This document shows, in pieces, positions 17,961 to 26,542 of a stretch of 64,000 nucleotides of DNA. Source of the stretch: Ectothiorhodospiraceae bacterium BW-2 (GTDB taxonomy: Bacteria; Pseudomonadota; Gammaproteobacteria; Thiohalomonadales; Thiohalomonadaceae); NCBI GenBank assembly GCA_008375315.1, contig CP032507.1:1911001-1975000 (forward strand), written 5' to 3'. Under the pieces are notes generated by a model. It was not told the origin of the DNA. It saw only the letters and a list, made by a program, of their open reading frames with translations, and made no database searches. Every line of letters starts with the position of its first letter. Positions within the stretch are counted from its first letter, which is position 1. The position numbers and the translations under genes are program-made.

Positions 17961-18551
17961 TTAGTTCAGAAAGGCCTCAAGTTCGGCAAAGATGGCCATA
18001 GGATCCTTAGCGCGGTAATCGAGCCCTAACTGGGCGCTAATCTGTTTGGTGGAGAAGATGCCGCGAACTTGCTGTTTGCCCTCCTCATCGGTCTCAACCA
18101 CAATCGCGTGTTGGCGATAGGCGAGCTTCATGGTGTCGATAATATCGCCCACGCGAGCCATGGTGACCCGTTTCATCTCTAATGCCTGTAGCTTGTTCTG
18201 CTCGGTCATGATGTCGCGCAAAAAGATCTCGTCGCGGTTACCGCCCCCCCGCTCTTGCAGGTAGAGCATCGGCCGCTCTCCCTGTAGATCGGTTAAGGTT
18301 ACGACCCCGAGGATATGGTTCGCTTGATCGACCACTAATAGCATGCGTACACCGGTAGCTATCATCCGCTTCTCTGCCGCTTCAAGCGTAGCGCAAGGCC
18401 CCATGGTGATAGCGGCGACTTTGGTAAAGTCGGTCATGACATCGGTGGCGGGGCTATCGGCGGTGACATTGTCGGGTAGGATTTGGGGCGGGCGCAAAAA
18501 GGTGACTTCGTCATCTAGTGGGACATAGTTTAAGGGTTGGTAGTTGGCCAT
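17961..18551 (-). CDS. CBS-domain pair protein
   Basis: A 196-residue protein with an N-terminal segment of about 45 residues and two CBS motifs. The first is around LEAAEKRMIATGVRMLLVVDQANHILGVVTLTDL. The second is around IMTEQNKLQALEMKRVTMARVGDIIDTMKLAYRQHAIVVETDEEGKQQVRGIFS. CBS pairs (Bateman modules) bind adenine nucleotides and usually regulate a partner domain; here they stand alone. It is 124 bp upstream of the MCP gene on the same strand, perhaps co-transcribed. Function unknown. Confidence 0.85.
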   Translation of the reverse strand: MANYQPLNYVPLDDEVTFLRPPQILPDNVTADSPATDVMTDFTKVAAITMGPCATLEAAEKRMIATGVRMLLVVDQANHILGVVTLTDLQGERPMLYLQERGGGNRDEIFLRDIMTEQNKLQALEMKRVTMARVGDIIDTMKLAYRQHAIVVETDEEGKQQVRGIFSTKQISAQLGLDYRAKDPMAIFAELEAFLN

Positions 18552-18788: not shown

Positions 18789-20381
18789 ATGAAAAAAAAT
18801 CTGCCCGTCACCCATCGGGAGCAGCACTTTTCCGGTGGTGACAATATCTTTTCGACCACCAATTTGAAGGGGGCGATTAGCTATGTCAACGAAGATTTTA
18901 TTCGCGTTAGCGGTTTTGAGGCGTCGGAGCTACTCGGCAAAAACCACAATGTGGTGCGCCACCCCGAGATGCCGCCAGAGGCGTTCAAAAATCTGTGGGA
19001 TGAGGTCAAACAGGGCCACTCATGGATGGGAATGGTTAAAAATCGTTGCAAAAATGGGGATCACTACTGGGTCGATGCCTTCGTTACCCCCATCAGTCAT
19101 CAGGGGCAGACAGAGGAGTATCAGTCGGTGCGGCGCAAGCCGAGAGCGGAGTTTGTGCAGCGGGCAGAGGCGCTCTATGCTGAGCTTTTGGCCGGTAAGC
19201 AGCCGGCAAAGATCAAAAATAGCTGGCTAGGTCTTCGCGGCAAGATGATCGGGGCGGCGGTGAGCGCCTCGCTGCTAGTCTTTGTGGTGCTACTGCTCTT
19301 TAGCGAGATGGCGTGGATAGAGGGCCTCTTAGGGTGGGTAGCTATGTCGCTACTCTCAAGTGCGATTATCCTCTACTTTTTACGACCGCTTGAGCTGATT
19401 GTCGCTAGGGCGCGTGCGGTGGCCAATGATCCGCTCGCTCGCTACATCTATACCGGCCGTAATGACGATATCGGTATGGTGCTACTTGCGTTTAAAAAGT
19501 TGGAGTCAGAGAGCGCCGGTATCATCGGTAGGCTGGCTGATGCCTCATCGCTGTTAAATAGAAACGCCACCGATCTGCATACCAATCTGAACCAGACTAA
19601 TCAGGGGGTGCAGCAGCAGTATGCTGAGACTGATCAGGTGGCGACGGCTATCAATCAGATGACGGTCAGTATTCAGGAGGTGGCCCATAACGCACAGCTA
19701 ACATCAGGTGCAGCGATTGCTGCTAATGAGAAGGCCGCTGACGGTATGAAAATTGTTCAAGCAACGATGCAAACGATTGAGTCGCTAGAGCAGGGGGTCG
19801 AGCAGGCGGCGAGGGTGATGCAGGTCGTCGAAAAAAATAGTGGTGAAATTAGCACCATTGTCGATGTGATTCAGAGTATTTCAGAACAGACTAATCTGTT
19901 AGCGCTCAATGCGGCGATTGAGGCGGCTCGCGCCGGTGAGCACGGACGCGGTTTTGCGGTTGTGGCCGATGAGGTGCGGGGGTTAGCCAATCGCACCAAT
20001 CAGGCGACACAGGAGATTCAGGCGATGATTGAGAAGCTACAAAGCGGTACTCGCGAAGCGGTTGTGGTGATGCATAACAGTAAAGAGCAGGCCGGTTTAA
20101 GCGTACAGCAGTCCACTGAGGCGGTCGCCTCGTTAAATGATATTACCGCAGGGATTGGTCAGATAACCGATATGAGCGCCCAAATTGCCACCGCCGTTGA
20201 GCAGCAGCGCACCGTGGCCGATGAGATTAACCACAGCATTGTGACGATTCGAGGCGTGGCGGAACAGACGATGGAGCGGGCTAATATCAGCCTCGCCTCT
20301 AGTATTAGCGTGCGCGATTTGGCGGGGAATCTTAGTCATCTCTCTGAGGAGTTCTGGACGCGGCGAATTCAGGTTAGCTAA
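18789..20381 (+). CDS. Aer-like PAS-domain energy/redox taxis receptor
   Basis: A 530-residue chemoreceptor without a periplasmic domain. The N-terminal PAS domain (about 15-115) closely follows E. coli Aer: [19 protein letters not shown], and [15 protein letters not shown]. In Aer this domain binds FAD and senses redox state. Two membrane segments lie at about 155-200, then a HAMP-like stretch and the signalling domain with the conserved tip [37 protein letters not shown]. An AGGAG lies 11 nt upstream of the ATG. The next gene starts 4 bp after its stop, so the two are expected to be co-expressed. Confidence 0.92.
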
Positions 20382-20385
20382 GGCG

Positions 20386-22554
20386 ATGCAGCGACCTCTC
20401 TCTCCGGGGGCAGGCTCCTTGTGGCGAGCCTTGATGTCGGTACAGTGGTGGGCCGGTGTCGGGGTGAGTCTCTGGGTGGCCGCGCTGTTGGTTCTGCTGC
20501 CGCTGGCCGCAGGTGCTCTGATGGCGAGTATCGACACTATCACGCCGCTACAGTGGTTTGCCGTCCTCTTCGGCCTAGTGATGACCACTTTTTGGAGCGC
20601 AGTGGCGCAGCGGGCGCTGTTTCTTCGCTTGGCAGAGTCGTTAACCGAGCAGCTATCTACGGCGCTGTTTGAGCGTCTGTTACGGCTTGAGATCGGAGAG
20701 CGGCTGGCGCGTATCGAAGCGCAGCTAAACAGCTTTAACCGCGATCTGCCCGAGCTGCAGCAGTGGCTAGGTCGAGTCGCCCCGCAACTCCTACTACAGT
20801 TACCCCTGCTACTGCTGACACTGGCGTTGATGCTAGTCATCTCTTGGGAGAGCGCTTTAACGCTGGCGCTGCTGTTAGCGGCGCTGGAGCTGCTACTACC
20901 TTGGCTCGATACCCTAGCACAGCGGCAACAGCAGCAGCAACAGCACTATCAGCAGCAGTTGAACGACGCCCTATTGCAGCCGTTACGACGACAGCCGCTG
21001 TTGCGTCTCTATCGGCTACAGGGGGGGGCGAGGCGTGAGTTTGAGCAGCTATTGCAGCAGAGGGGACAAAGCTTCCGCTCTGTCGGCTCGCAGCTACTAC
21101 AGTTGCAGCCGCTGCTGCTATGGCTGCGCTCTATGTTGCTGCTAGGGGTGGCGATTTGGGTTGCGCACCGCTATCAGAGCCAGCAGCTCTCGGTGGCTGA
21201 GCTTACCTCACTGCTGCTACTGATGCCGCTATTGAGCTACTCGCTCTCAAATCTCCCTCAGCAGTGGCGTCGGTGGCGTCAAGTAGAGGCCCTCTGGCGG
21301 CGGATGGCACCGCTGTGGCAGCTCTCACTAAGAGAGGAGCCTGAGGAGGGGCAGCGGCCAGTCGGGGCGTTGCAGCAGGGGATTTGGTTAAACGAGGTCA
21401 CTTTTCGGCCAGCAGAGGGGGAGCTGTCGCTGTTACTGGAGCTCTACATCAAGCGGGGTGAGCATCTAGCAATAGTGGGCGAGCAGCTAAGTGGCAAAAG
21501 CTACTTTATGCGCCTGCTAGCGGCACTAGAGCGGCCTAGCAGTGGGCAGATCTATTTTGATGAGACCCCCTATAGCCATCTTGCACCCGGTGTGCTGCAA
21601 CAGCAGATGGGCTGCCTGTTTAAAGAGCCGCTGCTGTTGCGCGATACCATTTTTAATAACATTCGCGCCGCTAGGGCCGATGCGAATGAGAGTGAGGTGG
21701 TACGAGCGGCGCAAGAGGCGGAGTGCCACGAGCTGATTCAACAGCTACCGCAGCGCTATCAGACTCTCTGCGATGAGCACAGCTCCCCACTCGACCTTGA
21801 GTTACAGCAGCGGATTGCCCTTGCAAGAGCGCTGCTAACTCGACCCCAAATTCTGCTGCTCGATGGCAGTTTAAGTCAGTTTGACCCAGTCGCCGAGCAC
21901 CGTTTTGTCGATACCCTGCACCGCATTATGGTCGGTCGCACGGTGGTGGTAGCTAGCCAGCGACTATCGATTATCGCCACAATGGCGCGTATTGTGGTGC
22001 TACACCGAGGGCAGATTGTCGAGCAGGGGAGCCATGATCTACTGCTACAGCGCAACGGCCACTACGCTCGTATCTGGCTAAAGCAGAGTCTGACCCAGAC
22101 CAATGGTAGGGGCGAGGCCGAAATCAATATGGAGCGGCTGCTAGCACTGCCACCGCTAGCGGTACTCCATCTGCGCCAGCGTCTGGGGCTAGAGGGGGTG
22201 GAGCGGCTACGGCGCAGCTTTATTACCGAACACTATCCGGCCGGTCATCTAGTCTTTGCCGATGGCGCGGCGGCCGATCGATTTCGGATTATTGCCAGAG
22301 GCTCGGTTGAGGTCTTCAAACCGGCCGAACTCGATAGCCCAGAGCGCCATATTGCCTATCTCACCGAAGGGGACTACTTTGGCGAGGGGGCGCTACTGTT
22401 AGATAGACCGCGTTCGGCATCGGTGCGAACCGTGAGCGCCACCACCTGTCTATCGGTAGGGCGGCAGCAGTTTGTGGCCTTAATGGAGGCGCAACCGGAG
22501 CTAAATGAGGATCTACGCAGCGTCTTTGAGGCGCGGTGGGCACAGTTACAGTAA
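20386..22554 (+). CDS. ABC exporter-like protein with degenerate ATPase site and C-terminal cNMP-binding domain
   Basis: A 722-residue protein: an exporter-type transmembrane domain (about 20-300, 5-6 hydrophobic helices), an ABC nucleotide-binding domain (about 335-565), and a CRP-like cyclic-nucleotide domain (about 590-715). Walker A is intact (GEQLSGKS, K371). Other catalytic motifs are altered. The signature LSGGQ is LDLEL (469-473), the Walker B catalytic Glu is Gly494 (LLLDGSLS), and the H-loop His is Gln525 (ASQRLS). It may bind ATP but hydrolysis should be very poor. The cNMP domain keeps the FGE...RPRSASV phosphate-binding cassette. The linker after TM4 is Gln-rich. Position directly after an aer-like gene suggests a regulatory or sensing role; the substrate is unknown. 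Confidence 0.85.
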   Translation: MQRPLSPGAGSLWRALMSVQWWAGVGVSLWVAALLVLLPLAAGALMASIDTITPLQWFAVLFGLVMTTFWSAVAQRALFLRLAESLTEQLSTALFERLLRLEIGERLARIEAQLNSFNRDLPELQQWLGRVAPQLLLQLPLLLLTLALMLVISWESALTLALLLAALELLLPWLDTLAQRQQQQQQHYQQQLNDALLQPLRRQPLLRLYRLQGGARREFEQLLQQRGQSFRSVGSQLLQLQPLLLWLRSMLLLGVAIWVAHRYQSQQLSVAELTSLLLLMPLLSYSLSNLPQQWRRWRQVEALWRRMAPLWQLSLREEPEEGQRPVGALQQGIWLNEVTFRPAEGELSLLLELYIKRGEHLAIVGEQLSGKSYFMRLLAALERPSSGQIYFDETPYSHLAPGVLQQQMGCLFKEPLLLRDTIFNNIRAARADANESEVVRAAQEAECHELIQQLPQRYQTLCDEHSSPLDLELQQRIALARALLTRPQILLLDGSLSQFDPVAEHRFVDTLHRIMVGRTVVVASQRLSIIATMARIVVLHRGQIVEQGSHDLLLQRNGHYARIWLKQSLTQTNGRGEAEINMERLLALPPLAVLHLRQRLGLEGVERLRRSFITEHYPAGHLVFADGAAADRFRIIARGSVEVFKPAELDSPERHIAYLTEGDYFGEGALLLDRPRSASVRTVSATTCLSVGRQQFVALMEAQPELNEDLRSVFEARWAQLQ

Positions 22555-22555
22555 C

Positions 22556-23695
22556 TTAACAGAACAGTTGCAGTACCTCATTGAGAAACAGATAGCCGGT
22601 AGGGGTGGCGGCGATGCGCTGGCGCTGCTGTTGCAACAGCCCCCGTTGTCTAGCCGCGTTAATAGCCGGTTCAGCTAGGGCCTCAACGGCGTAGCGCGAT
22701 AGCTGTGTGCTCTCGATTCCCTCGACTAACCGGAGCCCGTTCAACATCAGCTCGCACAAAATATCGGCCTGAGTGAGGCGAGTATGGCGACTAAGAGGCT
22801 GCGCCGCAGAGGGCTGCATATAGCGCTGTGGTAGCCGCTGCTTACTGGTTCGTACCACTGTGGCATCGCTATGGGTATATTTACCGTGGGCACCGGCCCC
22901 GACGGCGAGATAGTCGCCAAAATTCCAGTAGTTTAGGTTGTGTTGGCAGCGGCCGGAGGGGCGGGCGAAAGCGGAGATCTCATAACGCTCATAACCGTGC
23001 TGTTGTAGCAGCTCAATGCCCTGCTGCTGCACCTCGACTAGCCACTGCTCATCGGGTAGTGGAGGGGGGGTGTGGTAGAAGGGGGTATGCGGCTCCAGCG
23101 TGAGTTGATACCATGAGAGGTGCTCCACTTCGCAGGCGATAGCCTGACGCAGATCGGCAAGCGCCTCAGCCGGGCTCTGGTGGGGGAGACCGAACATAAG
23201 ATCGAGATTAATGCGTTTAAAACCGGCGCGTTTGGCTAGCGCGATGGCCTGATGCGCCTCGGCGGCGCTATGGAGGCGACCTAGCGCCTGTAACTGACGA
23301 TCATGAAAGCTCTGTACCCCGAGAGAGAGTCGATTAATTCCCAACGCGTAGTAGGCTTGAAAGTAGCGTTGATCGGCGCTGTTTGGGTTCGCCTCCAGTG
23401 TCGCCTCGTTGCCAAGGTTCCAACGACCACTCCGTTGTAGCGCCTCCATGATCGGGCGCAGCAGCTTGGGGGGGATAAGTGAGGGGGTGCCACCGCCGAT
23501 AAATAGCGTCTTAAGCGGGCGCGACTCGCTCAGTGCTAGCTCATCTTTTAGGTCTTGCAGCAATGATGCAAGGTAGCGCGACGGCTCCTCCCCGCGAGTA
23601 TGGGAGTTAAAATCGCAGTAGGGGCACTTCTGTCGGCACCACGGGTAGTGGAGATAGAGCGACAGCGGTGGCGGAGTGAGGGTCGAGATGTTCAT
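22556..23695 (-). CDS. hemW: HemW-like radical SAM haem chaperone
   Basis: A 379-residue radical SAM protein with the CX3CX2C cluster motif in CRQKCPYCDFNSH near residue 20. GGGTPSL and the HemN C-terminal domain follow. Length and the short N-terminus fit HemW, which delivers haem to respiratory proteins, rather than the true coproporphyrinogen dehydrogenase HemN. It is convergent with the ABC gene (1 bp gap) and divergent from priA across the DnaA-box region. Confidence 0.9.
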   Translation of the reverse strand: MNISTLTPPPLSLYLHYPWCRQKCPYCDFNSHTRGEEPSRYLASLLQDLKDELALSESRPLKTLFIGGGTPSLIPPKLLRPIMEALQRSGRWNLGNEATLEANPNSADQRYFQAYYALGINRLSLGVQSFHDRQLQALGRLHSAAEAHQAIALAKRAGFKRINLDLMFGLPHQSPAEALADLRQAIACEVEHLSWYQLTLEPHTPFYHTPPPLPDEQWLVEVQQQGIELLQQHGYERYEISAFARPSGRCQHNLNYWNFGDYLAVGAGAHGKYTHSDATVVRTSKQRLPQRYMQPSAAQPLSRHTRLTQADILCELMLNGLRLVEGIESTQLSRYAVEALAEPAINAARQRGLLQQQRQRIAATPTGYLFLNEVLQLFC

Positions 23696-24274
23696 AAGAA
23701 AATTTTATCATTTATCGATCACTTTGGGAAAAAAAAGGCCATTTTTAGCTTGACAGCGCGATAGTTATTCACAGGATTAGGAGGGGGAACGGTTGAACAG
23801 AGACTTCCCTTCGATAGTTAATAGGAAAGGTGAATTATATTGTTTAACTTATTGTATTTAATTATAAATAACCGCAGTAGTTGTGCTGTTGGAGGCAAAA
23901 ATAAGAGCTTGACAATCGCTGAAATTACCGTTCTATGGTACAGTGATCCACAAACTTATCCACAGCCTTTGCAGCGCTTGACGAATTAACAAGGGGTTAG
24001 CGCCATATTATGGTGAATAGATAACCAAAATAGGGTTGTTTACCAGGTTATTCACAACTGTCAACAGAGTTATGCACAATTTAGGCAAATTTTTATTCCA
24101 GATAAGGTTAACTGACTGAAATAGTAACAATTTACCGCTTTCTTTTTTAAGTTGTTGTTTTTTAAGTTAAAAAAAATTATGGCCTCTTTTTTTTGAGCGG
24201 TAATATAAATGAAATCAGTAGCTTTTACACGATCGGTCTGTAAATAATGCACAAACTTATCCACAGAAAGGCCG
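23696..24274. other. AT-rich intergenic region with DnaA-box cluster (oriC-like)
   Basis: This 579-bp gap has five exact TTATNCACA boxes, all on the plus strand: 23765-23773 (T), 23956-23964 (C), 24048-24056 (T), 24070-24078 (G), 24257-24265 (C). Two one-mismatch boxes lie 12 bp before the two TTATCCACA copies (23944-23952 and 24245-24253). The paired arrangement repeats a shared 16-bp sequence (23950-23965 and 24251-24266). Between about 24130 and 24215 lies a stretch of T- and A-runs that could serve as a DNA-unwinding element. Three GATC sites are seen (near 23717, 23946, 24231). The last box ends 9 bp before priA. It could be a replication origin or a DnaA-regulated promoter. Confidence 0.65.
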
Positions 24275-26542
24275 ATGTTTTCAAAAGGGGGTACCTTAAG
24301 GGGCTTTATAAAGAGGATTAATGAGAGTGTGAGTGATATTAACGACCAGATAACAGTTAGGGTGGCGCTAGAGCTGCCGCTACGGCGTCTGTTTGACTAC
24401 CGCTTGACTACCGTATTGAGGCCCCCTTTGAGCGCTCGGGTGAGAGTCCCTTTCGGTCGCAGGGAGCTCATTGGCTGGATATGGCAGCTTGAGCCAGAGG
24501 ATGCGCTGCCGATTAGTCAGCAGCGCAGCGTCATTGCTCTGCTCGATCAGCAGCCACTCTTGCCCTCAAGACTCTATCAGTTACTACAGTGGGGAGCGAA
24601 CTACTACCACCACCCTCTAGGCGAGGTGATCGCAACGGCGTTACCGCAGAAGATTCGTGCTGGGGGAGCGCTACAACCACAGTCGTTGATGCGGTGGCAG
24701 GCTAGTGTCGATTCGGCACAGCCCTATCTTAAACTGTTGCAGCAAGCACCGCTGCAACAGAAGATTTTGACCGCGGCGGTGGCGGCTCCCGAGGGGTTGA
24801 GTCGAGAGGAGCTTAAACAGCTCGGGTCGAGCTGGCAGCGAGCGGTAGAGCGGCTACGACAGCTAAAGCTGTTACAGTGTCGTAAGGTGGGTGATCTATC
24901 GGGCCACGAGCCGACACTGCAACCACGCGCTCCGAGCTACTCGCTAACAGCCGAGCAGCAGCAGGCGGTAGCGGCGATTAGCGCTCATTGGGATCAATTT
25001 CGCTGCTGGCTGCTACAGGGGATCACCGGTAGTGGCAAAACCGAAGTCTATCTACAGTTAATTGAACAGCGCCTACAGGCGGGACGGCAGGTGCTGGTGC
25101 TGGTGCCGGAGATCGGGCTCACCCCGCAGCTACTACAGCGCTTTAGCTCCCGCTTAGGGTGTCGCGTGACTAGCTACCATTCGGCCTTGAGTGAGGGGCA
25201 GCGCTACACCGCTTGGCGTGCTATCTATCATCAGCAGGCACGGCTGATTGTCGGCACCCGTTCGGCGCTGTTTGCCCCTTTTCAGCAGCTAGGATTGATT
25301 ATTATCGATGAGGAGCACGACAGCTCCTTTAAGCAGCAAGACCACTGGCGCTATTCGGCGCGAGATGTCGCGATTAAGCGGGCGCAGTTAGAGAGCATAC
25401 CGATTGTACTCGGCAGCGCGACCCCCTCTATGGAGAGCTGGTACCACGCCGAGGCGGGGCGCTATCAGCGGCTGCGGTTGAGTCAGCGAGCCGGCGCGGG
25501 TGAGCTGCCGTCGATTCACCTTATCGATTTGCGCACTGTTCGAGTGCAGCAGGGGTTGAGTGAACCGCTACAGCAGCGTATGGCAGAGCATCTGCAGCGC
25601 GGACAGCAGGTGCTGCTCTATCTGAATCGCCGCGGCTATGCGCCGGTGCTGTTCTGCTACCAGTGTCGCTGGAGTGCGATGTGTCACCAGTGCGATAGCC
25701 GCATGACGCTCTACCGCCACCATTCGCGCCTGCGCTGCCACCACTGCGGTAGTGAACGAGCAGTTCTCAGCACCTGTCCGGAGTGTCAGCAGCCGCTTCA
25801 CGCGATAGGGGAGGGGACTGAGCGGCTACATGAGGTGGTTAGCCAACAGTTTGCCGAGGTAGAGATCGTAAGAGTAGATCGCGATACTCTACCAACCGCA
25901 GCGCAGCTACAGCAGCAGATGGAGCGGCTACAGCACGGGCAGCGACAGATTATTATCGGCACCCAGCTCATTACTAAAGGGCACCACTTCCCAAACCTAA
26001 CCCTAGTTGGGGTGATTCATGGCGATCAGGGGCTGTTTAGTCTCGACTTTCGAGCAGCGGAGCGAATGGCGCAGCAGCTACTCCAGGTCGCCGGACGGGC
26101 GGGGCGGGAGTGCGAAGCGGGGGAGGTCTATATTCAGACCCACGATCCTAGCCATCCGCTATTTAGACCCTTACGACGACACGACTACGAAGCCTTTTTG
26201 CAACAGGAGTTACCGCTTCGGCAGCAGGCAGAGCTCCCTCCCTATACCCACATAGCGCTGATTCGGGCAGAGGCGAAGGAGGCGTCGCAGGCTAGCGCTT
26301 TTTTAGAGACGCTGTTAGCCCAGCTAGTGGGTGCCGCCTATCCCGATTTAGACTGTTTTGGCCCAGTCGCAGCACCGCTAAGTCGTCGTCGTGGTTACAG
26401 TCGCTGGCAGTTACTGCTACAGAGCCGCCGTCGGGAGACCCTGCACACCCCGCTACTGCAACAGCTACCACTTTGGGAGAGATTACCGCAGGCGCGGCGG
26501 GTGCGCTGGTCGATCGATATTGATCCGCTGGATCTCTATTAA
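24275..26542 (+). CDS. priA: Primosomal replication restart helicase PriA
   Basis: A 755-residue 3'-5' DNA helicase that reloads the replisome at stalled forks. The N-terminal DNA-binding domain (about 25-120) is followed by the helicase core with Walker A GITGSGKTEVY, DEEH box IIIDEEHDSSFKQQD, and GSATPSMESW. A zinc-binding insertion with paired cysteines follows (CYQCRW, CHQC, CHHCG, CPECQQ). Helicase motifs V and VI are in GTQLITKGHHFPN and LLQVAGRAGR. The exact start is uncertain: ATG 24275 is used, but a GTG at 24329 would match the usual PriA start better. Confidence 0.94.
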   Translation: MFSKGGTLRGFIKRINESVSDINDQITVRVALELPLRRLFDYRLTTVLRPPLSARVRVPFGRRELIGWIWQLEPEDALPISQQRSVIALLDQQPLLPSRLYQLLQWGANYYHHPLGEVIATALPQKIRAGGALQPQSLMRWQASVDSAQPYLKLLQQAPLQQKILTAAVAAPEGLSREELKQLGSSWQRAVERLRQLKLLQCRKVGDLSGHEPTLQPRAPSYSLTAEQQQAVAAISAHWDQFRCWLLQGITGSGKTEVYLQLIEQRLQAGRQVLVLVPEIGLTPQLLQRFSSRLGCRVTSYHSALSEGQRYTAWRAIYHQQARLIVGTRSALFAPFQQLGLIIIDEEHDSSFKQQDHWRYSARDVAIKRAQLESIPIVLGSATPSMESWYHAEAGRYQRLRLSQRAGAGELPSIHLIDLRTVRVQQGLSEPLQQRMAEHLQRGQQVLLYLNRRGYAPVLFCYQCRWSAMCHQCDSRMTLYRHHSRLRCHHCGSERAVLSTCPECQQPLHAIGEGTERLHEVVSQQFAEVEIVRVDRDTLPTAAQLQQQMERLQHGQRQIIIGTQLITKGHHFPNLTLVGVIHGDQGLFSLDFRAAERMAQQLLQVAGRAGRECEAGEVYIQTHDPSHPLFRPLRRHDYEAFLQQELPLRQQAELPPYTHIALIRAEAKEASQASAFLETLLAQLVGAAYPDLDCFGPVAAPLSRRRGYSRWQLLLQSRRRETLHTPLLQQLPLWERLPQARRVRWSIDIDPLDLY

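Follow-up and report, generated by a model that had tools for sequence, protein, structure and literature searches.

The second gene of a two-gene unit in the genome of Ectothiorhodospiraceae bacterium BW-2 encodes an ABC exporter-type protein with a C-terminal cyclic-nucleotide-binding (cNMP) domain, and to judge from its sequence the ATPase site of this protein is dead. It lies beside a gene for an ordinary Aer receptor, and our best reading, at about even odds, is that its product is a lineage-specific pseudo-exporter that has been turned into a nucleotide-binding regulatory membrane protein. Both genes are in a window of 64,000 nucleotides (assembly GCA_008375315.1, contig CP032507.1, forward strand positions 1,911,001 to 1,975,000), and coordinates given without a contig or locus are counted from its first letter. 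The general features of the two genes are shown in Table 1.

Table 1. Features of the aer and ABC-cNMP genes and their products.
Feature	Position	Strand	Remarks
Aer-like aerotaxis/redox receptor gene	18789..20381	+	ORF, 530 aa
PAS domain	18837..19181	+	aligns with 8dik, the PAS structure of E. coli Aer, VRHPEMP included
Hydrophobic membrane hairpin of receptor	19245..19388	+
MCP signalling domain	19758..20255	+	PF00015
Intergenic gap, receptor/ABC-cNMP	20382..20385	+	4 bp
ABC-cNMP gene (exporter type, cNMP domain C-terminal)	20386..22554	+	ORF, 722 aa; ATPase motifs lost
TMD	20446..21360	+	long helices, Leu/Gln rich, accelerated
NBD	21373..22080	+	degenerate motifs
A-loop region	21397..21417	+	VTFRPAE; FGY in family, Tyr342 to Pro
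Walker A	21478..21504	+	GEQLSGKSY, residues 365-373; P-loop core kept
Q-loop	21616..21636	+	LFKEPLL; Gln413 to Lys
Signature region	21781..21813	+	SSPLDLELQQR where GG.LSGGQ.QR expected
Walker B/D-loop	21853..21885	+	LLLDGSLSQFD; Asp493 kept, catalytic Glu494 to Gly
H-loop	21952..21969	+	ASQRLS; His525 to Gln
Linker	22114..22161	+	EAEINMERLLALPPLA; family-specific, common to other ABC-cNMP fusions
cNMP-binding domain	22228..22491	+	PF00027
Phosphate-binding cassette	22375-22425	+	FGEGALLLDRPRSASV; intact

Organization of the aer and ABC-cNMP genes

The initial annotation placed 4 bp between the PAS receptor and the ABC gene, and the ORF coordinates agree with this, the ATG of the ABC-cNMP gene being its earliest possible start. 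A gap of this size leaves no space for a terminator, which makes co-transcription of aer and abc very likely, and the two genes probably share one transcript. Their upstream neighbour is a divergent CBS-domain-like ORF (17961-18551) and their downstream neighbour a convergent HemW-like gene (22556-23695), so that by position they form a two-gene unit. No sigma-28 promoter was found in a scan of the locus (L001), which begins inside aer, and sigma-70 and terminator scans gave matches no better than chance level. The content of leucine and glutamine is unusually high in the ABC, HemW and PriA proteins (positions 20386-26542), leucine making up 19.7% of the ABC protein and 25.5% of its TMD.

The Aer-like receptor

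The first ORF has the layout PAS, TM hairpin, HAMP-like segment and MCP signalling domain, with Pfam matches to PAS_3 and MCPsignal. The closest PDB entry is the PAS domain of Aer (8dik, E 1.4e-32), and the Aer receptor structure 31cj also matches (E 1.1e-30). The PAS domain is of Aer type, the MCP signalling domain lies downstream of the membrane hairpin, and of the residues relevant to FAD binding the Arg-His of VRHPEMP and the Trp are present. An Aer-like redox receptor had been proposed here; the true Aer type is borne out, and this half of the pair is an ordinary Aer.

ATPase motifs of the ABC-cNMP protein

Pfam assigns ABC_membrane, ABC_tran and cNMP_binding domains to the second ORF, with the cNMP domain C-terminal in a single chain. 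An AlphaFold model of the protein has a mean pLDDT of 61.6 and is informative in its NBD and TMD for the fold alone; the cNMP part is poor (pLDDT ~40 over most of it) and could not be used. Foldseek searches with this model, whose confidence is modest, retrieved ABC exporters, with HlyB, Atm1, TmrAB and TM287/288 as the top matches, from which we infer that the protein would adopt a dimeric exporter fold.

The signature, the catalytic glutamate and the H-loop histidine had been described as lost (LDLEL instead of LSGGQ at residues 469-473, Gly494 and Gln525), and alignment with relatives agrees. Walker A, said to be retained, keeps its GxxxxGKS core, but the usual Gly368 is replaced by Leu and Thr373 by Tyr. 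The earlier description is accurate, if somewhat understated; missing from it are the losses of the A-loop Tyr342 (now Pro), the Q-loop Gln413 (Lys) and the D-loop Leu499 (Phe). Measured against active exporters, the protein lacks LSGGQ, the catalytic Glu, the Q-loop Gln and the H-loop His, and has the P-loop GxxxxGK[ST] (as GEQLSGKS) and the Walker B aspartate (Asp493). Twelve of the 31 NBD columns that are identical across 11 other ABC exporters are lost in the window copy; 11 of these 12 are nucleotide-site or motif positions, and the 19 other invariant columns are kept. In the same test each of the 11 other ABCs departs from 0-9 columns common to the rest, and the loss in the window copy is far beyond chance. 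A homodimer of a protein that has none of the A-loop Tyr, the Q-loop Gln, the signature, the catalytic Glu and the H-loop His would be without any canonical ATP site, and no ABC neighbour that might be a partner half-transporter is found within the aer/abc operon.

The cNMP domain

The C-terminal domain matches PKG/PKA/CRP-family proteins. A well-formed cyclic-nucleotide pocket had been reported, and we find the same: the pocket YFGEGALLLDRPRSASV (residues 664-680) is well formed, and the phosphate-binding cassette FGEGALLLDRPRSASV is complete and carries both Glu and Arg. Four class III cyclase domains are encoded in the genome, and the bacterium may thus produce cyclic nucleotides. In the HetC exporter the cNMP domain, itself essential in vivo, bound ppGpp but none of the canonical ligands that were tested (PMC10986499), and cAMP should therefore not be assumed as the ligand here.

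Distribution of the fusion and of the gene pair

Within the family and the order, which coincide (20 genomes), the ABC-cNMP fusion occurs in BW-2 and in genome G006 only; it was found in 3 of 369 genomes of the class, and elsewhere in the phylum in G493 and G462. Five other fusions were compared (two from G006 and one each from G347, G493 and G462), and all five have intact ATPase motifs (A-loop, Q-loop, LSGGQ, DEATS-type Walker B and H-loop). The neighbours of the G006 fusions are deoxyhypusine-synthase-like and methyltransferase genes and an acyl-AMP-ligase-like gene, with no aer; a deoxyhypusine-synthase-like gene (L018:10781-11827) lies immediately 5' of one of them. Plasmid-borne relatives were not found at E 1e-40, and a contig search with the whole ABC-cNMP protein as query returned generic ABC proteins only.

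Most of the family's genomes have Aer orthologues (38-57% identity). None of 19 aer neighbourhoods (18 family aer loci and the second aer of BW-2) has an ABC-cNMP match beside aer, two of the 19 being uninformative since their contigs stop <0.4 kb past aer, and among the genomes searched the pairing was met in BW-2 only. Two genomes have a CheV-like gene (CheW plus receiver, assigned by eye) downstream of their aer orthologues (L068 and L069).

The proposal in the initial annotation had been made to depend on conservation of both the gene pair and the altered motifs in relatives; the other fusions compared have intact motifs, and in the relatives searched the pair is not conserved. A conserved Aer/ABC-cNMP sensory system is not supported; a pair in one genome only points instead to a one-off pump turned binding or regulatory protein.

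A paralogue with an intact ATPase

In a tree built from the TMD+NBD core of 62 proteins, the window protein, the five other fusions and a paralogue from BW-2 itself (G000:C1:33242-34963) form one clade (100/100). The paralogue has an intact ATPase and is without a cNMP domain. On the tree it is likely the sister of the window protein (97/92; 99/94 in a smaller set), although the AU test leaves other placements unrejected (p 0.07 and 0.23), and the branch length of the window protein is 4.56 as compared to 1.26 for this sister. If the sister relation holds, the loss would be reciprocal, the paralogue having kept the engine and the window copy the sensor. The two genes are ~1.9 Mb apart. The paralogue lies directly 3' of a cNMP-cNMP-NTE_Ploop-patatin (NTE-like) gene and 5' of a short-chain dehydrogenase, in an operon-like set (L021:4367-9809; G000:C1:30366-35808) with a transposase-like ORF upstream.

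Decay or changed role

The initial annotation held that intact homologues would mean that this copy is simply decaying. The homologues are indeed intact, but decay cannot be concluded from this, since cNMP domain, reading frame and codon usage are all maintained. The frame runs through 722 codons with no stops or frameshifts, and synonymous codon usage correlates with that of neighbouring genes at 0.95. When unconstrained drift was simulated with 10% of residues changed, about five stops arose on average, and stop-free runs numbered 0 of 200.

Each domain was measured as the identity of the window copy to the other fusions minus the mutual identity of those fusions, and by this comparison, which rests on five proteins each found by similarity to the window protein, the NBD stands at -12.2 points relative to the family level [-16.7,-7.5], the TMD at -7.5 points [-10.7,-4.4] and the cNMP domain at +3.1 points [-1.0,+7.7]. 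The difference between cNMP domain and NBD was greater than zero in 1000 of 1000 bootstraps, and the NBD deficit is -5.3 points with the motif columns taken out. A clearly low NBD is seen in no other fusion, and the faster divergence is limited to the TMD and NBD of the window copy.

A further explanation is relaxed selection following duplication, in which a roleless pump came to lie behind aer and now drifts towards loss without acquiring any new function. We regard this as possible, though on the unlikely side. The intact homologues, the single-genome distribution and the long branch are what it would lead one to expect, as is the fast TMD, for whose acceleration relaxed selection could be an alternative cause; it accords poorly with a cNMP domain at the family level of identity, with the absence of stops and frameshifts, and with the codon usage and the drift simulation. 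A pseudogene was also considered, and is not supported by the frame, the codon usage and the cNMP constraint. The completeness of the phosphate-binding cassette is a further argument against plain decay, which we do not regard as the best interpretation.

Proposed role and alternatives

On the reading of a pseudo-exporter turned regulator, the protein is a duplicate of an ABC-cNMP exporter. Its sequence shows that the ATP-hydrolysis motifs are gone and that P-loop core and Walker B Asp remain, and by comparison with the other fusions its cNMP domain has stayed under normal constraint. The protein most likely no longer pumps; it is probably dimeric and located in the inner membrane, and is predicted to bind a cNMP and perhaps ATP too. 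Its ligand state would set its conformation and so modulate a partner protein, for which the Aer receptor and the intact paralogue are the candidates. With a transcript presumably shared with aer, it would be made whenever the cell makes Aer. If the cNMP constraint holds without the catalytic motifs, this would be a bacterial pump turned nucleotide-responsive regulator, for which the paralogue in the same genome offers a built-in comparison.

The pseudo-exporter might alternatively pair with the cNMP-less paralogue in a mixed dimer, and gate or inhibit that exporter upon ligand binding, which we think unlikely. The probable sister relation, the reciprocal loss of cNMP domain and ATPase, and the position of the paralogue behind an NTE-like gene with cNMP domains all fit such a pairing; however, the genes are far apart, alternative placements survive the AU test, and neither site of the dimer would be canonical since the window subunit is without LSGGQ and the catalytic Glu.

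The pair had originally been viewed as a sensory unit in which binding of ATP and cNMP, not transport, modulates taxis or a partner. With an ATPase that is dead by sequence, a true Aer, and a cNMP domain that looks preserved, binding rather than transport is reasonable; a conserved unit is not, the pair being absent from the relatives searched. Several magnetochrome (MCR) domains are clustered elsewhere in the genome (G000:C1:2726128-2747257), and the MCR family is absent from 14 control genomes, so that the genome is probably that of a magnetotactic, magnetosome-forming gammaproteobacterium. An Aer-like PAS reading frame of 849 aa lies at 2729012 inside this cluster, and magnetotaxis operates jointly with aerotaxis (PMC5088516). 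That the pseudo-ABC exporter is a transport-free receptor for a cyclic nucleotide (or ppGpp) that tunes Aer in a magnetotactic bacterium is quite improbable, although nucleotide second messengers would be linked to aerotaxis were it true that the protein acts on Aer.

Direct modulation of Aer signalling and taxis by the dead ABC-cNMP protein is very doubtful. The 4-bp gap with its probably shared transcript, the preserved cNMP domain and a host that is probably magnetotactic, and hence probably aerotactic, would be in line with it, but the Aer orthologues of the family have no ABC partner, the Aer is ordinary and that of E. coli functions without such a partner, and operon mates need not interact. 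That the protein is still an active exporter by non-canonical chemistry is scarcely credible. ABCB11 and other exporters in which one site is degenerate remain active (PMC7544095), but these keep one canonical site, and a homodimer here would have none.

A second MCP-ABC operon lies close by, ~3 kb before the window begins (L142:4055-7982; G000:C1:1904054-1907981). Downstream of its MCP gene, across a gap of 5 bp, come an ABC-2-type ATPase whose motifs are intact and a permease.

Relationship to known systems

The window receptor resembles E. coli Aer in its PAS domain with VRHP(D/E)MP, its membrane hairpin and its MCP signalling domain, and differs in that the Asp of VRHPDMP is replaced by Glu and in that an ABC-cNMP gene lies 4 bp downstream. 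ABC-cNMP fusions are already known, and the window protein shares with them the order TMD-NBD-linker-cNMP, a linker resembling ERLxAVPLLA, and a core that groups with theirs in the clade that also holds the cNMP-less paralogue. It departs from them by its lost ATPase motifs, being the only copy found in which these are not intact, and none of the five others was seen next to aer.

A single dead site is common among ABC exporters. In TAP, TM287/288 and ABCB11 (the last a single chain) the catalytic Glu and signature residues are lost at a nucleotide site, as they are here, but all of these keep one canonical site, whereas the half-site of the window protein is degenerate on either side. SUR1 (ABCC8) of the KATP channel is an ABC protein that acts as a nucleotide-responsive regulator and not as a pump. 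The window protein may be likened to it by analogy only, as a putative regulator instead of a pump, since SUR1 belongs to another ABC class, has a non-homologous arrangement and keeps one working site. HetC of Nostoc, a PCAT exporter, has an N-terminal cNMP domain, a peptidase domain, an ATPase that is intact and essential, and ppGpp as its ligand (PMC10986499), whereas the window protein has its cNMP domain at the C-terminus and has lost its ATPase motifs; the two are alike in that each is an ABC exporter with a cNMP domain that is thought to be regulatory.
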